Shown piece after piece: positions 147-12,726 of a stretch of 45,926 nt of DNA. The translations under genes and the position numbers were made by a program. Every line of letters starts with the position of its first letter. Positions within the stretch are counted from its first letter, which is position 1. The stretch comes from Pseudomonadota bacterium (lineage in GTDB: Bacteria > Pseudomonadota > Alphaproteobacteria > SHVZ01), in the NCBI GenBank assembly GCA_016195085.1, contig JACQAG010000010.1, forward strand, positions 1 to 45,926. The letters are read 5' to 3'. The notes beneath the pieces were generated by a model. The model saw nothing but the letters and a program-made list of their open reading frames with translations, had not been told where the DNA came from and searched no databases.

Positions 147-683
147 CTAGGTATCCTCGTCGTCCTTCGCCGCCTCCCCGCCTTCGGCCTCCGGCTTGCG
201 CCGGTCGGGACCCTCGAAGGGCAGAGTCCGGCGCCGACGATCCGGGCCGAAATACTCCTTGGTCCTGACGAAGTGGCGCGGGCTCTCGATGAGCGCGGTG
301 AGCCGGGAGAATAGCTGCTGGGCGGAGACCGGCTTCACCATGAAATCGTTGATGCCGGCATCCCTGGCGGCGATCACCCGCTCCTTGTCGGTGTGGCCGG
401 TGATCATGATGATCGGCACATAGGGATCGTGGCTCGCCGGCGCCATGCGGATGTGCCGGGCGAGCTGTAGCCCATCCACCGGCTGCATGTTCCAGTCGGT
501 GATCACCAAGTCGATGTCGTTGGCCTCGAGCTTCTCCAGCGCATGGCCGCCCTCGGTCGCTTCGATGACGGTGCCGACGCCGAGCGCCTTGAGGATGGTG
601 CGGATGAGCGAGCGCATGTGCTGGTTGTCGTCGACGACCAGCACCGTCAGCTGCCCGAATCGATAGCCAGCCGCCCCTGTCAC
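147..683 (-). CDS. Single-domain response regulator with charged tail
   Basis: This is a CheY-type receiver protein of about 178 residues. The REC domain is complete: the acidic pair in VLVVDDN, the phospho-acceptor Asp in VITDWNM, the switch Thr in IMITGH and the conserved Lys in FMVKPVS. After the receiver there is a short tail with two GPDRRR/GPDRRK repeats and an acidic end. The GPDRR repeat is common in alphaproteobacterial single-domain regulators, and no DNA-binding output domain is present. It should therefore act by protein-protein contact in a phosphorelay. I chose a GTG start at 683 because GAGG lies just upstream. A TTG at 701 is the alternative and has no ribosome-binding site. 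No partner kinase is adjacent. Confidence 0.88.
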   Translation of the reverse strand: MTGAAGYRFGQLTVLVVDDNQHMRSLIRTILKALGVGTVIEATEGGHALEKLEANDIDLVITDWNMQPVDGLQLARHIRMAPASHDPYVPIIMITGHTDKERVIAARDAGINDFMVKPVSAQQLFSRLTALIESPRHFVRTKEYFGPDRRRRTLPFEGPDRRKPEAEGGEAAKDDEDT

Positions 684-739
684 GCTGCCTCGGCCCCCCA
701 AGCCGAGAGTCAGTCTAGCGGATTCGGCCCGACCAGTGA

Positions 740-1273: not shown

Positions 1274-1340
1274 CCCGGCTCCGGTCACGCGCGGGCTGCA
1301 TCGCCCGCGTGTCGTCGGCCAAGATCGTTGTCCGCAAATA

Positions 1341-1359
1341 TGATTGTCAACGACAATCG
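1341..1359. promoter_or_regulatory. Putative MarR operator, site 1
   Basis: A perfect inverted repeat, GATTGTC-AAC-GACAATC (1342-1358), lies 69 bases upstream of the marR start. The surrounding 19 bases match the site at 2820-2838 at 15 of 19 positions. Size and symmetry suit a MarR dimer. Autorepression is inferred. Confidence 0.6.
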
Positions 1360-1385
1360 CCGCGGGATCGGCGCACGACGCAGCC

Positions 1386-2612
1386 TCAGCGGACGAGCGG
1401 GCAACCGCCCTCCTTGAGCGGCCGGAAGGCCTTGTCGGCATCGATGGTGGCGACGGCCTTGAAGTAGTCCCACGTCGCCTTCGACTCCGCCGGGCTCTTT
1501 ACCTGCATCAGATACATCGGATGCATCTTGCGGCCGTCCTCACGGATGCTGCCCTTGCCGAACAAGGGATCGTCGGTCGCCATCGCCTTCATCCGGGCGA
1601 CGACCGCCCTGCCGTCCGCGGCGGCGCCCAGAGCGTCGACCGCCTTCAGGTAATGCAGCACGCCAGCGTATACGCCGGCATGCATGTCGTTCGGCATCCA
1701 CTTCTTGGCGTGGCGCTCCTGGAAGCGCCGCGACCACGCCCGCGTGCCGTCGTTCATATCCCAATAGAACGGAAATACCGTCAACAGACCCTGCACCGGC
1801 TCCAGACCCAGGGCCGGCACATTGTGCAGGCCGAAAATCAGCGCCGCCAGCTTCTGCTTCTTGCCCATGCCGAACTCGGCCGCCTGCTTCAAGGAATTGG
1901 TTGTGTCGCCGCCGGCATTGGCGAAGCCGACGATATCGGCACCCGAGGCCTGAGCCTGCAGAAGGAACGAGCTGAAATCGCTGACGCCGATCGGATGGCG
2001 GACCGCACCCGCCACGCTGCCGCCGCTGCTGACCACCTCGTCGCTTGCCTGCTTCTCGAGATCATGCCCGAAAGCATAATCCGCGGTCAGGAAATACCAG
2101 CGCTTGCCGCCCTGGCCAATGATCGCGCGGGCGACCGAATGGCCGTAGGACCACGTGTCGTAGGTCCAATGCACGGTGTTGGGCGAACACTGCGCCCCGG
2201 TCAGAAGCGCCGTGCCCGCGCCGGAGCCGATCATGACCTTGTTCTTGTCCTTGACGATGTCGCCGACGGCAAGTGCGACGGCCGAATTCGGCAGATCGAC
2301 GATCACGTCGACCCCTTCCTCATCGATCCAGCGCCGGGCGATGGCGGCACCCACATCGGTCTTGTTCTGGTGGTCGGCGAACACCACCTCGACCTTGCGG
2401 CCCGCCGCCTTGCCGCCGCGGTCCTCGACCGCCATCTGGGCCGCCTGCACCGATCCCGGGCCCTGAAAGTCCGCATAGGGACCGGACATGTCGTTGAGCA
2501 CACCGATGCGGATCGGCCGCTCTTGCCCCCTCAAGGCGGACGGAAGGGCGAGCGTGCCTGCGGCCGCAAGCACCATCATCGGCAGAAAGACGGCGCGCAA
2601 GGACAAGGTCAT
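1386..2612 (-). CDS. LivK/CouP-like ABC substrate-binding protein
   Basis: A 408-residue periplasmic binding protein of the branched-chain amino acid/aromatic type (Peripla_BP_6). An N-terminal signal peptide with a hydrophobic core (FLPMMVLAAAGTLAL) is followed by the family opening RIGVLNDMSGPYADFQG. Later hallmarks include DLPNSAVALAV, FLTADYAFGHDLE and MHAGVYAGVLHYL. Proteins of this group bind amino acids or aromatic acids; CouP of Rhodopseudomonas binds phenylpropanoids. The divergent feruloyl-CoA synthase operon suggests a hydroxycinnamate ligand here. No LivHMGF permease or ATPase genes are in the window, so partners must be encoded elsewhere. The gene runs toward marR, and its promoter lies in the same intergenic region (2613-2849) as operator site 2. 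Confidence 0.88.
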   Translation of the reverse strand: MTLSLRAVFLPMMVLAAAGTLALPSALRGQERPIRIGVLNDMSGPYADFQGPGSVQAAQMAVEDRGGKAAGRKVEVVFADHQNKTDVGAAIARRWIDEEGVDVIVDLPNSAVALAVGDIVKDKNKVMIGSGAGTALLTGAQCSPNTVHWTYDTWSYGHSVARAIIGQGGKRWYFLTADYAFGHDLEKQASDEVVSSGGSVAGAVRHPIGVSDFSSFLLQAQASGADIVGFANAGGDTTNSLKQAAEFGMGKKQKLAALIFGLHNVPALGLEPVQGLLTVFPFYWDMNDGTRAWSRRFQERHAKKWMPNDMHAGVYAGVLHYLKAVDALGAAADGRAVVARMKAMATDDPLFGKGSIREDGRKMHPMYLMQVKSPAESKATWDYFKAVATIDADKAFRPLKEGGCPLVR

Positions 2613-2819
2613 GATGACGCCTCCTTAATTTGCCCGGTCGTTCGGCGGACCAACGTGAATGACTTCGATTGGCGCGCGTGCGCCGTCGCCGCTGCTGAGG
2701 GAGCGCGCAACATACGAGCGGAGGCCGGCGGAACCAGTCCGTGCAAGACCCCTCCCAGAGCTGCCGAATTTGCGTTCGGCTTAGCGATTGCTTGATGAAA
2801 ATGTGTATCGAAGGAATTA

Positions 2820-2838
2820 TTATTGTCAATAACTATCG
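2820..2838. promoter_or_regulatory. Putative MarR operator, site 2
   Basis: The inverted repeat TTATTGTCAATAA (2820-2832) is embedded in a 19-base stretch that matches site 1 at 15 of 19 positions, with the shared core ATTGTCAA and right flank ATCG. It ends where the GAGG ribosome-binding site (2838-2841) of the amidohydrolase gene begins. Bound repressor would sit on the promoter and leader of the catabolic operon, and could also affect the divergent binding-protein gene. Confidence 0.6.
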
Positions 2839-2849
2839 AGGATGCCGCA

Positions 2850-3746
2850 ATGGCGAAATACGTGCCTCGGCTCGATCTGGCGGCGCTCGTCGCCATCGAC
2901 GTCCACACCCACGCCGAGACCTCCAGCCGTCAGCCGCGGGACCCCTGCTCGATCATCTTTGATGAGGCGATGGCGAAGTATTTCCGCGAGACGGCGCGGC
3001 CGACCATTCCTGAGGTCGCCCGGTACTATCGCCAGCGCAAGATGGCGGCGGTGATCTTCCCGGTCGATACGGAAGCCGAGATGGGCCATTGGCGCATCGC
3101 CAATGAGGAAGTGGCGGAGCTGGCTTCCGAGCACAGCGACGCCTTGATCCCGTTCGCCAGCATCGACCCTGCCAAGGGCAAGATGGGTGTCCGCGAAGCC
3201 CGGCGCCTCATCGAGGAGTATGGCGTTCGGGGATTCAAGTTCCATCCCTCGGCCCAGGGCTTCTACCCCAACGATCGCAAGGCCTATGGACTCTACGAGG
3301 TGATCGCCGGAGCGGGCCTGCCGGCGCTGTTCCACACCGGGCAGACCGGTGTCGGCGCCAACATGCCGGGCGGCGGCGGGATCCGGCTCAAATATTCCAA
3401 CCCGATCTACCTCGATGATGTCGCCGTCGATTTTCCGAGCCTGACCATCATTCTGGCCCACCCTTCCTTTCCTTGGCAGGATGAGGCGTTGGCGGTCGCC
3501 ACCCACAAACCGCAGGTCCACATCGACCTTTCCGGCTGGTCGCCCAAATACTTCCCGGCCAACCTCGTGCAGTACGCCAACACGCTCTTGAAGCACAAAG
3601 TGCTGTTCGGCTCGGACTTTCCCGTGTTCACGCCGGACCGCTGGCTCGCGGATTTCGCCACGGTCAATATCAAGCCCGAGGTCAGGCCGTTGATCCTCAA
3701 GGAGAATGCGATAAAGCTGCTGAAGCTCGGCGACACCGAAGTCTGA
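2850..3746 (+). CDS. Amidohydrolase-2 protein, CouO-like beta-ketoacyl-CoA hydrolase
   Basis: A 298-residue TIM-barrel metal-dependent hydrolase. The HxH metal motif is in IDVHTHAE near the N terminus. Further hallmarks are RGFKFHPSAQGF, ALFHTGQTG, IILAHPSFPWQDE (metal His) and the terminal Asp in LFGSDFPV. In hydroxycinnamate-degrading bacteria (CouO of Rhodococcus) such proteins hydrolyse 4-hydroxyphenyl-beta-ketoacyl-CoA to a hydroxybenzoate and acetyl-CoA. The neighbouring feruloyl-CoA synthase and hydratase/dehydrogenase supply exactly that substrate. I chose ATG 2850, preceded by GAGG at 2838-2841; a TTG at 2823 is in frame but lies inside the operator. It is first gene of a three-gene operon. 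Family is certain, specificity is inferred. Confidence 0.85.
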   Translation: MAKYVPRLDLAALVAIDVHTHAETSSRQPRDPCSIIFDEAMAKYFRETARPTIPEVARYYRQRKMAAVIFPVDTEAEMGHWRIANEEVAELASEHSDALIPFASIDPAKGKMGVREARRLIEEYGVRGFKFHPSAQGFYPNDRKAYGLYEVIAGAGLPALFHTGQTGVGANMPGGGGIRLKYSNPIYLDDVAVDFPSLTIILAHPSFPWQDEALAVATHKPQVHIDLSGWSPKYFPANLVQYANTLLKHKVLFGSDFPVFTPDRWLADFATVNIKPEVRPLILKENAIKLLKLGDTEV

Positions 3747-8237: not shown

Positions 8238-9377
8238 TCAGACATAGCCGGTCGAGCCGTCCGGCCTGGTGGGCACCTTGCGCTGCCAATGGACGTAGCC
8301 GTCGCGGGCGAGCACCGCTTCGTCCATTTCCACGCCCCAGCCCGGGCGATCCGGGCGCAATTCGAGATAGCCGTCTTTAGGTAGGTACGGGTCCTTCACA
8401 TAAGGAGCGCCGTCGGGCAGGCGGTATTCGAGGATGCGGAAGTTCGGCTGCGCGGCGGAAAAATGCAGATTGACCGCGGTCGCCAGCGGCCCCATCGGAT
8501 TGTGCGGCGCCACCGTCACGTAGTGAGCTTCCGCGAGAGCGGCGATCTTGCGCATCTCGAGCACGCCGCCGACGGCGCAGATGTCGGGCTGGATGATGTC
8601 GGCGCCCGCGACCGACAACAGATTCAGGAACTCGAAGCGGCCGTAGAGGCATTCGCCGGTGGCGAGGGTGCAGCGGAGCTGCCGCTTCAATTCGCCCCAG
8701 GCTTTGATGTTTTCCGGGCGGATCGGCTCCTCGAAGAACAAGGGATCGTAGGGGGCCAGCGCATTGCCCAGCTGGACCGCCTGGATCGGCTCGAAGATCT
8801 GCGCATGGGCATCGAAGGCGAATTCGTAATCGGCGCGCGTCGTCTCCCGGAGCGCACGGAAATACTCGGCGCTGGTGCGCACCACTTCGCCCCAGCGATT
8901 GGCATGGATGTCGATCCGATAGGGGCTGAGCTTGAAGGCGGTCAGGCCCCACTTGGCGTTGAGCGTATCCGCCTGGTCGCGGGCTTGCGGCGGATCGGGC
9001 GCGGTATAGACTCCGGCATAGACCCGCACGCGCTCGCGCGCATTGCCGCCCAGGAGCATGTAGACCGGCACGCCCAGGGCCTTCGCCGAGATATCCCACA
9101 GGCAATGGTCGATGGCGGAGATCGCGGCCAGACCCAAGGCTCCCGGCGGAAACCGCGATTGCTGCAGGAGGTACAGCATTAGGTATTCGATGCGGCGGGG
9201 ATCCTGGCCGCGGATCAGCTCGAAGAGATAGTCGAGGAGCGGCGGCAGCGCCTTGTCGGGGCCGTGGTTGTAGCACTCGCCCCAGCCGGTCACGCCATCG
9301 TCGGTGTCGATGGCCACCACCACACGCGGGCGATCCTTGTCGTGCGTCATGAATGCCCGCAGCCGCTCGATCCGCAT
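8238..9377 (-). CDS. Enolase-superfamily sugar-acid dehydratase (galactonate-dehydratase-like)
   Basis: A 379-residue mandelate racemase/muconate lactonising enzyme-type protein. The N-terminal capping domain begins MRIERLRAF. The barrel carries the Lys region FKLSPYRID, metal ligands Asp in FAFDAHAQ, Glu in LFFEEPIRP and Glu in ATGECLYGR, then IQPDICAVGG and the catalytic His in VAPHNPMGP. The EEP...GE...QPD...PHNPMGP series is that of galactonate/gluconate dehydratases, which remove water from sugar acids to give 2-keto-3-deoxy acids. The substrate cannot be read from sequence. Start ATG 9377 has GAGGG six bases upstream. In-frame codons continue to 9569 but look non-coding. It appears monocistronic. 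Confidence 0.87.
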   Translation of the reverse strand: MRIERLRAFMTHDKDRPRVVVAIDTDDGVTGWGECYNHGPDKALPPLLDYLFELIRGQDPRRIEYLMLYLLQQSRFPPGALGLAAISAIDHCLWDISAKALGVPVYMLLGGNARERVRVYAGVYTAPDPPQARDQADTLNAKWGLTAFKLSPYRIDIHANRWGEVVRTSAEYFRALRETTRADYEFAFDAHAQIFEPIQAVQLGNALAPYDPLFFEEPIRPENIKAWGELKRQLRCTLATGECLYGRFEFLNLLSVAGADIIQPDICAVGGVLEMRKIAALAEAHYVTVAPHNPMGPLATAVNLHFSAAQPNFRILEYRLPDGAPYVKDPYLPKDGYLELRPDRPGWGVEMDEAVLARDGYVHWQRKVPTRPDGSTGYV

Positions 9378-9689
9378 GGAGCCCTCATCGATCCCGATTT
9401 TGCCGCATAGAGTATGGGCAATCCTGCCCAAATGTGACATGTCAAAACCGTTCCGGGGGACCGAGGACGTCTTGAGCGGCGCCGAGATCGACGCCGTCGG
9501 ATTTTCGGCGTATTTTGTGCTGGCTTTGAGGGAATCCTTGGGTTTCTCGACAGTCCGCGGCCGCATCAACTTCTCGCGTCTCTTGCCCTCGTCGGGACGG
9601 CGCCGAAGGAGGTCCGAGCGTTGCGATCCTCAGACCCAACGGGCTGAGAGCCTTTCTGCTGATGAACACAACGAAGGGGGAGGCGTTCG
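9378..9689. promoter_or_regulatory. Intergenic region with two short palindromes
   Basis: No gene is seen in this 312-base divergent gap. Two inverted repeats lie close to the dehydratase start: TGGGCA-ATCC-TGCCCA (9415-9430) and the 10-base palindrome TGACATGTCA (9435-9444). Either could be an operator for the minus-strand dehydratase gene; no regulator is adjacent to it. A GGGGGAGG ribosome-binding site for the next gene lies at the right end. Confidence 0.35.
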
Positions 9690-10564
9690 ATGATGCCAGG
9701 TCGGTTGGCCGTTGCCGTTCTCACCGCCGCGGGGCTGATCGCCCTCGGCACACCCGCCGCGGAAGCAGGCGCCATGTTCGACGCCATCAAGGCCCGCGGC
9801 TACGTCGTCTGCGGCGTCAACCAAGGCCTGCCGGGATTCGGCAATCCCGATAGCCAGGGGAAATGGACCGGGCTCGACATCGACTTCTGCACATGGCCGG
9901 CGTCAACTTCTATGACGGCCAGGGCTTCATGGTGCCGAAGAAGCTGGGCGTGACCTCGGCCAAGCAGCTGAACGGCGCCACCGTCTGCGTGGCGCCCGGA
10001 ACCACCACCGAGCTCAACCTCGCCGATTATTTCCGCGCCAACAACATGAAGTTCCAGCCGGTCGTCATCGAGAAGATCGACGAGGTGACCAACGCCTTCT
10101 TCAACGGGCGCTGCGATGTGTATACGACCGATGCCTCCGGTCTCGCTTCCACCCGCGCCGCCATGGCCCCGAAGCCGGACGACTATGTGATCCTGCCGGA
10201 GCGCATCTCCAAGGAACCCCTGGGACCGGTCGTACGCAAGGGTGATGACCAGTGGTACGCGGTCGTGCGCTGGACGCTTGATGCCATGATCGAAGCGGAG
10301 GAGCTCGGCATCACCTCGAAGAACCTGGACGAGAAACTGAAGAGCACCGATCCGGCGATCCAGCGCGTGCTCGGGGTCACCCCCGGCTACGGCAAGGCGC
10401 TCGGGGTGGACGAGAAGTGGGTCTACAACATCGTCAAGGCCGTGGGGAACTACGGCGAGAGCTTCGAGCGCAATGTCGGCAAGGGCACGGTGCTCAATCT
10501 CGAGCGCGGCCTCAACGATCTGTGGACCCGCGGCGGCATCATGTACGCGCTGCCGCTCCGCTGA
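9690..10564 (+). pseudogene. Broken general L-amino-acid binding protein (aapJ/bztA-like)
   Basis: Two frames together make one amino-acid ABC binding protein. Frame one (from ATG 9690) encodes a signal peptide and GYVVCGVNQGLPGF...GLDIDFC, then goes out of phase at about 9889. The frame that takes over encodes MAGVNFYDGQGFMVPKK, APGTTTELNLADYF, GRCDVYTTDASG and the rest to the stop at 10564. In AapJ/BztA proteins about 50 residues normally separate DFC from the FYDGQGF motif. These are missing here, so roughly 150-165 bases appear deleted with loss of frame. The 875-base remnant is shorter than the usual gene of about 1 kb. No aapQMP genes follow. An assembly error is possible but less likely than a real deletion. 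Confidence 0.85.
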
Positions 10565-10708
10565 GCGGCACGGGTCGATCCAGCGGAGGATGCTCCTGCG
10601 CTTCCTCGGCGGCGATGCGCGTCGCCGGACCGGGTGGGATGACCCTCGGCTCCTAGTGTCAAGCGCTCCGAACTTCGTCCGATCCCGGCGAGCTTCGGCG
10701 CCGGCACC

Positions 10709-10752
10709 CTAGCCCCAATACTGTTCACTTAACTGAACAGTATTGGGGCTAG
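10709..10752. terminator. 44-base perfect hairpin between converging genes
   Basis: Perfect 19-bp arms (CTAGCCCCAATACTGTTCA and its complement) flank a 6-base loop, CTTAAC. The right arm contains the stop codon of the SDR gene (10749-10751). Position between a plus-strand pseudogene and a minus-strand gene suggests a bidirectional terminator, but there is no T-tract on either side. The AT-rich inner part ACTGTTCA...TGAACAGT also looks like a repressor operator. Confidence 0.5.
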
Positions 10753-11567
10753 CTCGACCAGTTCTGCTTGAAGTCGCCGTAAAGCGTCAGGCCGCCGCAG
10801 GCATGGAGCGTCTGCCCGGTCACGTAGGAGGCATCGTCGGAGGCGAGGAAGGCGAACACCGGCGCCATCTCCTCAGGCGTGGCGGCGCGGCCCATGGGAA
10901 TATGCGCCTCGACGGCAGCGCGCGACGTCGGATCATGGCGCCAGGAATCGTTCATCTCGGTCAAGACTGCGCCGGGGCCGACCGCATTGACGCGGATGCC
11001 GCGATCGGCGAATTCCAGCGCCAAGGTGCGGGTGAGATTGCCGAGCCCGCCCTTGCTCACGGAATAGGCGAGATAGCCCGGCTTCGGCACGCGCTCATGC
11101 ACGCTCGATGTGTTGATGATGGCGCCGCCGCCGGGCCTCGTTAGAAAATGCTTGATGGCGGCCTCGGCGCAATAGGCCGCTCCCTTGAGATTGACGGCGA
11201 GAACCCGATCGAATTCCGCGTGGTCGAACCCGTCACCCGGCGTCGTTGCTTGAATGCCGGCATTGTTGACCAGAATGTCGAGGCGTCCCCAATCGGCGAT
11301 GAGGGTTTGCACCATGCCCTGCACCGCATCGGCCGAGGCGACGTCGGCGTCAACGAGGCGATGCTTGCGGTCGGCATAGCCGGCGGCCCGGCTTGATGCC
11401 TCGACCTCATCGAGCGCCGCCTTCGCATGGCCGGCATCGCCGACATAGTTGATGGCGACGCTGGCGCCCTCGGCGGCAAAGCGCACCGCCACGGCACGGC
11501 CGATCCCGCGTGAGCCGCCGGTGATGAGGGCGAACCGCCCCTCCAGCCGGGCCGCGATCTTCTGCAT
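10749..11567 (-). CDS. Short-chain dehydrogenase/reductase (SDR, glucose-dehydrogenase-like)
   Basis: A 272-residue classical SDR. The cofactor motif is ALITGGSRGIGRAVA, the structural NNAG motif is ILVNNAGIQ, the catalytic Ser lies in IINTSSVHE, and the YxxxK pair is in YLAYSVSKGG. IRVNAVGPGAVLTEM follows, and the C-terminal SYVTGQTLHACGGL is usual for 3-oxoacyl reductase/glucose 1-dehydrogenase relatives. AGGAG precedes ATG 11567. It is divergent from a LacI-family regulator with an operator-like palindrome between them, so it is probably a catabolic sugar or polyol dehydrogenase of the neighbouring uptake cluster. The stop codon lies within a strong hairpin. Substrate unknown. Confidence 0.88.
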   Translation of the reverse strand: MQKIAARLEGRFALITGGSRGIGRAVAVRFAAEGASVAINYVGDAGHAKAALDEVEASSRAAGYADRKHRLVDADVASADAVQGMVQTLIADWGRLDILVNNAGIQATTPGDGFDHAEFDRVLAVNLKGAAYCAEAAIKHFLTRPGGGAIINTSSVHERVPKPGYLAYSVSKGGLGNLTRTLALEFADRGIRVNAVGPGAVLTEMNDSWRHDPTSRAAVEAHIPMGRAATPEEMAPVFAFLASDDASYVTGQTLHACGGLTLYGDFKQNWSS

Positions 11568-11648
11568 GGGCGCTCCTCTCTTCGACCGGTGAGGCGATCT
11601 TCCGCAAAGGATTGATCTGGGTTGCCGAACAAGGCAATATCATGGGGT

Positions 11649-11662
11649 CCAAAACGATTTGG
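11649..11662. promoter_or_regulatory. Putative LacI-family operator
   Basis: CCAAAACGATTTGG is an even palindrome (arms CCAAA/TTTGG) with a central CG, the hallmark of LacI/GalR-family operators. It sits between the divergent SDR gene (start 11567) and the LacI gene (start 11719), placed to control both. Binding is inferred from form and position. Confidence 0.5.
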
Positions 11663-11718
11663 AAGAGTATTTTGGTAAGGTTCCGAACTCGGATGGCTGC
11701 ACCTCCCAGGAGCGAGGG

Positions 11719-12726
11719 TTGAGCGCGCTGCGGGCGCTGGCGAGCTCGCTCGGACTGTCGCCGACGACGGTGTCTCGGGCCCTCGACGGTTATGGCGACG
11801 TGGCCGCCAAGACCCGCCAGCGGGTCCACCTTGCGGCGGACGCCGCCGGCTATCGGCCCAATGCCGCCGCCAGGCGCCTGCGCCGCGGCGCCCCGGAGAT
11901 GGTGAGCCTGGTGCTGCCGACCGAGCCCGGGCACTTCAACGAGCCGCTTTACATCGAACTGCTCGCCGCCATGGGCGGGCATTTGGCAGGGCAAGGCTTC
12001 GATCTCACGCTCATCGCCGCGCCGCCCGGGCCGGATGAGATCAAGACCTATCGCCGGCTCGTCGAGGGCCGCCGCGCCGACGGCATCGTCGTGGTCCGCA
12101 CCCGACGGCAGGATCCGCGCATCGACTATCTCGGGCGCATAGGCTTTCCCTTCGTCGTCATGGGCCGCACGGAGATGCCGCTGCCCTACGCCTTCGTCGA
12201 CGGCGACGGCGAGCTGGCATTTCTGGAGGCAACGCAGCGGCTCCTCCGGCTCGGCCATCGGCGGATCGCGCATATCGCGGCACCTGCGGCCTTCACCTTC
12301 GCCCATCTCCGCCGCCGCGGCTATGAGCGCGCGATGCGCCAGGCGGGCCTTGCGCCGGTGATCGCCGAGGCGACGGCCGATGAGCGGGGCGGGCTTGCCG
12401 GCGCCAGAGATATTCTCGGCGCGAGGGAGCCGCCGACAGCCCTCCTCTGCGCGACCGACCTCATGGCCTTCGGCGCCCTCAAGGCGGCGCGCGAGCGGGG
12501 CTTGGCGGTGCCGGCGGATCTCTCGGTCATCGGCCACGACAACATTCCGATGTCCGCCTACTCCGATCCGCCGCTCACCACCATGGAGCTGCCGATCGAG
12601 GCAACCGGGCGCCGGCTCGCCGAGATGATCCTGGCGCGGATCGGCGGCGCCGGACCGGAGGGAATGCAGGAAATCCTCGCGGTGAGGCCGACCGAGCGCG
12701 GCTCGACGGCGCGTCCGCGAGACTGA
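11719..12726 (+). CDS. LacI-family transcriptional regulator
   Basis: A 335-residue regulator. The N-terminal helix-turn-helix reads LASSLGLSPTTVSRALDGYG, followed by the hinge GYRPNAAARRLRRG. The periplasmic-binding-protein-like sensor domain has YIELLAAMGGHL, RADGIVVVRTRR, LLRLGHRRIAHIA, ALLCATDLMAFGAL and LSVIGHDNIPMSAY. I chose the TTG at 11719 because AGGAG lies six bases upstream and this start leaves the usual short lead into the HTH. An earlier TTG at 11659 would overlap the operator. The gene precedes a sugar-type ABC importer operon and is divergent from an SDR dehydrogenase, so it is probably the local repressor, with the imported sugar or a product as effector. Confidence 0.87.
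   Translation: MSALRALASSLGLSPTTVSRALDGYGDVAAKTRQRVHLAADAAGYRPNAAARRLRRGAPEMVSLVLPTEPGHFNEPLYIELLAAMGGHLAGQGFDLTLIAAPPGPDEIKTYRRLVEGRRADGIVVVRTRRQDPRIDYLGRIGFPFVVMGRTEMPLPYAFVDGDGELAFLEATQRLLRLGHRRIAHIAAPAAFTFAHLRRRGYERAMRQAGLAPVIAEATADERGGLAGARDILGAREPPTALLCATDLMAFGALKAARERGLAVPADLSVIGHDNIPMSAYSDPPLTTMELPIEATGRRLAEMILARIGGAGPEGMQEILAVRPTERGSTARPRD

Follow-up and report, generated by a model that had tools for sequence, protein, structure and literature searches.

A predicted 21-bp operator shared by a CouR-type marR gene and an fcs-like acyl-CoA ligase operon in an uncultured alphaproteobacterium

The analysed stretch of DNA, hereafter the window, comprises 45,926 nucleotides of an alphaproteobacterial genome and contains a predicted marR gene, a livK-like gene and a divergent operon of three genes, which probably serves the degradation of plant phenolic acids (Table 1). 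The livK-marR intergenic gap is 112 bp long, and 237 bp separate livK from the divergently read amidohydrolase gene. The last gene of the operon had been described in an earlier note on this DNA as a hydratase; the hydratase domain is indeed present, but it is part of a FadB/FadJ-like hydratase/dehydrogenase fusion and not a lone hydratase. Such a fusion points to the beta-oxidation of an aromatic acyl-CoA and not to the retro-aldol release of vanillin, while the ligase subfamily and the type of the regulator would suggest ferulate as the acid. A thiolase gene was not found in the examined stretch of the window; in the relative genome G191, described below, it is a thiolase gene that carries the operator. 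Beside the operon (8238-12726) lies a second catabolic set with a mandelate racemase/enolase-type enzyme, a short-chain dehydrogenase and a LacI-type regulator, and marR is adjoined by the gene of a single-domain response regulator (147-701, minus strand), which is outside the conserved cluster.

Table 1. Genes and predicted control elements of the marR-livK-fcs region, in window coordinates.
Feature	Coordinates	Strand	Remarks
marR, CouR-type MarR repressor (predicted), 177 aa	740..1273	-	start ATG 1273; PF01047, E 4e-10
Site 1, putative marR operator, AATATGATTGTCAACGACAAT	1337..1357		register preferred by the matrix; overlaps the 1342-1358 dyad
livK-like ABC transporter substrate-binding protein	1386..2612	-	PF13458, E 4e-108; co-directional with marR
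Sigma-70-like promoter, ATGAAA-17-TATTAT	2795..2823	+	consensus scan: 1 found, 0.3 expected; no sign of function by itself
Site 2, predicted operator of the amidohydrolase-ligase-hydratase/dehydrogenase operon, ATTATTATTGTCAATAACTAT	2816..2836		matrix rank 1; G191 match
Amidohydrolase-2 family protein, operon gene 1	2850..3746	+	PF04909, E 1e-50; ATG 2850
fcs-like acyl-CoA synthetase, 622 aa	3788..5656	+	NF009232/PRK12582 subfamily, 822.9 bits against a cut-off of 777
Enoyl-CoA hydratase/3-hydroxyacyl-CoA dehydrogenase fusion, 703 aa	5667..7778	+	PF00378 + PF02737 + PF00725

Reading of the sequence confirmed that the two elements at 1341-1359 (TGATTGTCAACGACAATCG) and 2820-2838 (TTATTGTCAATAACTATCG), which had been proposed as a shared operator, agree at 15 of 19 bases, with ATTGTCAA common to both, and that they lie where they had been placed, before marR and at the leader of the amidohydrolase operon. 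Each contains a perfect dyad (GATTGTC-AAC-GACAATC, 1342-1358, axis 1350, in site 1; TTATTG-T-CAATAA, 2820-2832, axis 2826, in site 2), but the axis of site 1 falls 3 bp to the right of 1347, where the 15/19 alignment would place it, so the inverted repeats of the two sites are in different register. When both intergenic regions were shuffled with their dinucleotides preserved, at least 15 of 19 matches were reached in 158 of 1500 trials (about 10%). Thus the likeness within the window is weak and suggestive only, and it was rejected as sole evidence. Exact copies of WTTGTCNNNGACAAW and RTTATYGNCRATAAY occur once each in the genome (4.8 Mb), the former at site 1 and the latter at site 2. Site 1 is located about 64-84 bp ahead of the marR start codon, in the livK-marR gap, and site 2 in the livK/amidohydrolase gap, immediately ahead of the first ATG of the operon, where the -10-like TATTAT (2818-2823) falls within it.

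The genome collection yielded one close relative, a Rhodospirillales MAG (G191, locus L031). Its orthologues of the window MarR, the livK-like binding protein and the ligase show 67%, 68% and 73% identity and lie on two contigs; the livK-marR order is kept and the ligase is on the other contig. Ahead of a thiolase gene beside marR, G191 carries AATTATTATCGGCAATAACTAT, which is identical to window 2815-2836 at 20 of 22 bases, whereas its flanks of 40 bases each agree at no more than 6 and 10 positions. Since the downstream genes differ (thiolase in G191, amidohydrolase in the window) and the flanks do not align, it is the element itself that is conserved and not the surrounding DNA. Two further, weaker copies were recognised, GATGATTATGCTCGATAACTAT (17/22, reached in 0 of 300 shuffles) in the gap that separates fcs from a divergent metE-like gene, and AATGGTTATTGAGGTTATCTAT (15/22, reached in none of 2000 shuffles of that region) upstream of livK-marR. 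The livK-marR gap of G191 holds no copy of the box; the G191 box precedes livK instead.

The box was best described as a 21-bp element, ATnRTTRT-N5-AYAAYnAT, with the half-sites ATTGTTAT-N5-ATATCAAA, so that the 19-bp operator proposed earlier holds in essence, with a corrected length and with site 1 as the weaker copy. Ligase relatives were drawn from across the class. Outside G191, a perfect box, ATTGTTGTCGTCAACAACAAT (= ATTGTTGT-CGTCA-ACAACAAT), is present in genome G406 between a divergent fcs-like ligase gene and marR, and ACTGTTGTTGACGACAACAAT is found in genome G098 between a MarR gene and a divergent thiolase gene. These two sites and the three of G191 were combined in a matrix built only from sites outside the window, and 45,906 window positions were scored with it. 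Site 2 came out on top with 35.2 bits, followed in second place by site 1 with 17.2 bits (in the register 1337-1357). Neither score was reached in any of 5000 shuffles of the respective gap, the best shuffle being close in the case of site 1 (16.55 against the observed 17.22). The perfect dyad at 1342-1358 was rejected as the shared motif, as it is missing from G191 and the matrix prefers the other register. Site 1 ranked third when the G191 sites alone were used and second with the G406 and G098 sites alone; the latter is the more independent test, because the G191 sites had themselves been picked out through their resemblance to site 2.

It could be supposed that site 2 is the sole true operator, that the match on the marR side is a chance palindrome or the site of another regulator, and that marR is read through from livK. 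The score of site 1, about half that of site 2, its third place with the G191-only matrix, the location of the G191 box before livK and not in the livK-marR gap, and the ease with which shuffling reproduces the 15/19 likeness are all in accord with this. However, site 1 still comes second in the whole window, both with the five outside sites and with the G406 and G098 sites alone, and it is intergenic, just ahead of marR. Autoregulation is, moreover, the usual behaviour of MarR regulators. We consider this explanation unlikely. On the comparative evidence, site 2 is a predicted operator of near certainty, and site 1 a weaker candidate for the operator of marR itself, second in rank but low in score and not positionally conserved in G191.

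The earlier note had proposed a motif search in related marR/fcs loci and had named lack of conservation there as grounds for refutation. A second matrix of six training sites, including site 2 of the window, was applied to 12 further CouR-like loci. In 9 of the 12 the best position of the whole locus fell within the 300 bp that precede marR, the ligase gene or the hydratase gene. The motif thus proved conserved in G191 and in most of these loci, and the refuting outcome did not occur. The binomial probability of this, about 1e-9, is optimistic, since the promoter windows were set only once these loci had already been looked at, and the loci from A. tumefaciens and S. meliloti are mutually related, so the 12 loci are not all fully independent. 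The loci include these A. tumefaciens and S. meliloti plasmid loci, Azospirillum B510, where the box precedes an aldehyde dehydrogenase-hydratase/lyase-ligase set, and the 74% orthologue of R. palustris CouR in G406, with ATTGTTATGGACCATATCAAA upstream of its gene. Three of the 12 (L158, L159, L088) have no box in the expected promoter. The MarR homologues in genomes of the same family as the window (G001-G006), about 40% identical, have no good box match at their loci, and fcs relatives without a nearby MarR gene mostly lack an intergenic box. A MarR gene stands beside an acyl-CoA ligase/hydratase operon in the window, G406, G057, G250 and the A. tumefaciens plasmid. In G057, a box lies before the hydratase gene (L139:11915-11935) and two overlapping boxes before fcs (L139:6526-6562). 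The first and second ranks obtained with the outside-genome matrix, together with the box at most CouR-like loci, support the earlier claim that one repressor would control both marR and the operon.

The whole genomes were scored by patterns only, with ATNRTTATYGNCRATAAYNAT, up to 3 mismatches and the reversed pattern as control. The pattern matched eight places in the window's own genome (G000) and 11 places in G191, whereas its reversed form matched none. The top-scoring place was this locus in both genomes, namely site 2 and the G191 thiolase box; in G191, two places have 2 mismatches, one of them the ligase site, and the livK site belongs to those with 3. The remaining G000 places are nearly all inside coding frames and were thus rejected as additional members of the regulon. 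One intergenic match, C78:14519, near what we take from the sequence to be a fliG-like gene, is probably due to chance.

The explanation that accounts best for these observations, and which as a whole we hold to be highly probable, is that the locus is governed by a CouR-type repressor. A dimer of the marR product would bind the 21-bp inverted repeat. The copy at site 2, covering the -10 and start region of the operon, would serve repression, and the bound dimer would block initiation, since TATTAT sits inside; the weaker copy ahead of marR would provide autoregulation. The ligase would make an aromatic acyl-CoA, most likely feruloyl- or coumaroyl-CoA, upon which the repressor would let go and the beta-oxidative operon would be expressed. 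The parts of this model differ in strength. What the sequence comparisons support is the operator motif common to these loci and its association with this repressor family and with the ligase; that the control is repression and not activation, acting by occlusion of the promoter and including autoregulation, we infer. A CoA thioester is the likely inducer by analogy, and the same analogy suggests feruloyl or coumaroyl as its acyl group.

Hydroxycinnamoyl-CoA releases the CouR proteins of R. jostii RHA1 and R. palustris, FerC and A. fabrum HcaR (PMC4737184, PMC5487221, PMC10458429). Among solved structures the best match of the window MarR is R. palustris CouR (6c28, E 3.4e-24), whose score of 88.9 bits is about twice that of the next (46.6); the identity is approx. 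34% to this protein and approx. 30% to RHA1 CouR. The window marR is a CouR-type MarR repressor gene with its regulon, an ordinary member of the known switches. R. palustris CouR is a p-coumaroyl-CoA-responsive repressor of couAB, and a ligase and a hydratase are under its control, as is predicted here, but the window has a 622-aa PRK12582-type ligase, the hydratase/dehydrogenase fusion and an amidohydrolase. A. fabrum HcaR (Atu1422, SpG8-1b) represses its own gene and the genes of a feruloyl-CoA synthase, a hydratase, a dehydrogenase and a thiolase in a CoA-dependent, beta-oxidative hydroxycinnamate route like the pathway predicted here (PMC7797058); there the hydratase and the dehydrogenase are separate, and no amidohydrolase is named among the enzymes. 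RHA1 CouR, with a CoA-thioester ligand, recognises an inverted repeat whose half-sites are 5 bp apart (cATTGA-N5-TCAATg), located over the promoter and before its own gene (PMC4737184). The half-site differs from ours, and the arginine segment used against the CoA phosphates (Arg36/Arg38, at the start of the wHTH segment) appears unconserved: GLRVRS of RHA1 CouR aligns in the window MarR with GVTATQ, a segment that has no arginine (residue numbering inferred). Thus the two-arginine occlusion mechanism of RHA1 may not apply; the structure model of the window MarR (mean pLDDT 60.5) was too weak for comparison. FerC (Sphingobium SYK-6) and Saro_0803 (Novosphingobium) are MarR regulators of phenylpropanoid or stilbene breakdown, the latter binding GCAATA-N6-TATTGC (PMC10046596), and the window MarR, at 81.6 bits, falls far under the 200-bit cut-off of the Saro_0803 model.

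The lack of the RHA1-type arginines would also fit another possibility, that the sites are bound as proposed above but the inducer is a free acid or another aromatic, a proposal made on structural grounds for Acinetobacter HcaR; the A. baylyi protein has been shown together with protocatechuate and other free aromatics (PMC5487221). On the other hand, R. palustris CouR, by far the nearest characterised relative, is released by p-coumaroyl-CoA (PMC10458429), and the ligase belongs to the regulated unit. An inducer of this kind seems to us rather improbable. That the AT-rich TTATTGTCAATAA (2820-2832) is a mere -10 or leader element of coincidental likeness would agree with the TATTAT inside it, but can hardly be reconciled with its 20/22 conservation before a non-homologous gene within diverged flanks, with one exact copy per genome and with the box in the expected promoters of 9 of 12 loci, and is extremely improbable.

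The underlying biology, a MarR repressor induced by the CoA product of the ligase, is already known; the CouR-type reading of the window adds, for a CouR-like clade of uncultured Alphaproteobacteria that has been little described, an operator that can be tested and from which the regulon can be read in the sequence. The amidohydrolase and, in the relative, the thiolase, the ABC binding protein and the methionine-synthase-like gene would thereby be linked to hydroxycinnamate-type breakdown. A broader interpretation, whose chances we would put slightly below even, is that a broad CouR/HcaR-like MarR clade across the Alphaproteobacteria has this box as its conserved operator, that in the branch of the window and G191 it joins livK uptake, the ligase, the thiolase and, in G191, the methionine-synthase-like gene into one regulon, and that the amidohydrolase is an unrecognised enzyme of the route. 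The methionine-synthase-like gene (NF006589 equivalog) divergent from fcs at the G191 operator (L046:4458-4535, contig C90) lies near LivHMGF-like transporter genes and could tie the recycling of methyl groups from O-demethylation to the same regulon. Elsewhere in G191 (L090:3760, C130:53759), the palindrome ATCGTAATTTACAATAACAAT, flanked by a LysR-like gene and a gene divergent from it, resembles the box and probably belongs to another regulator. As for the amidohydrolase, the sole solved relative is the uncharacterised 3irs, and a relative with 71% identity adjoins fcs and a CouR-like marR in G057 (L139).
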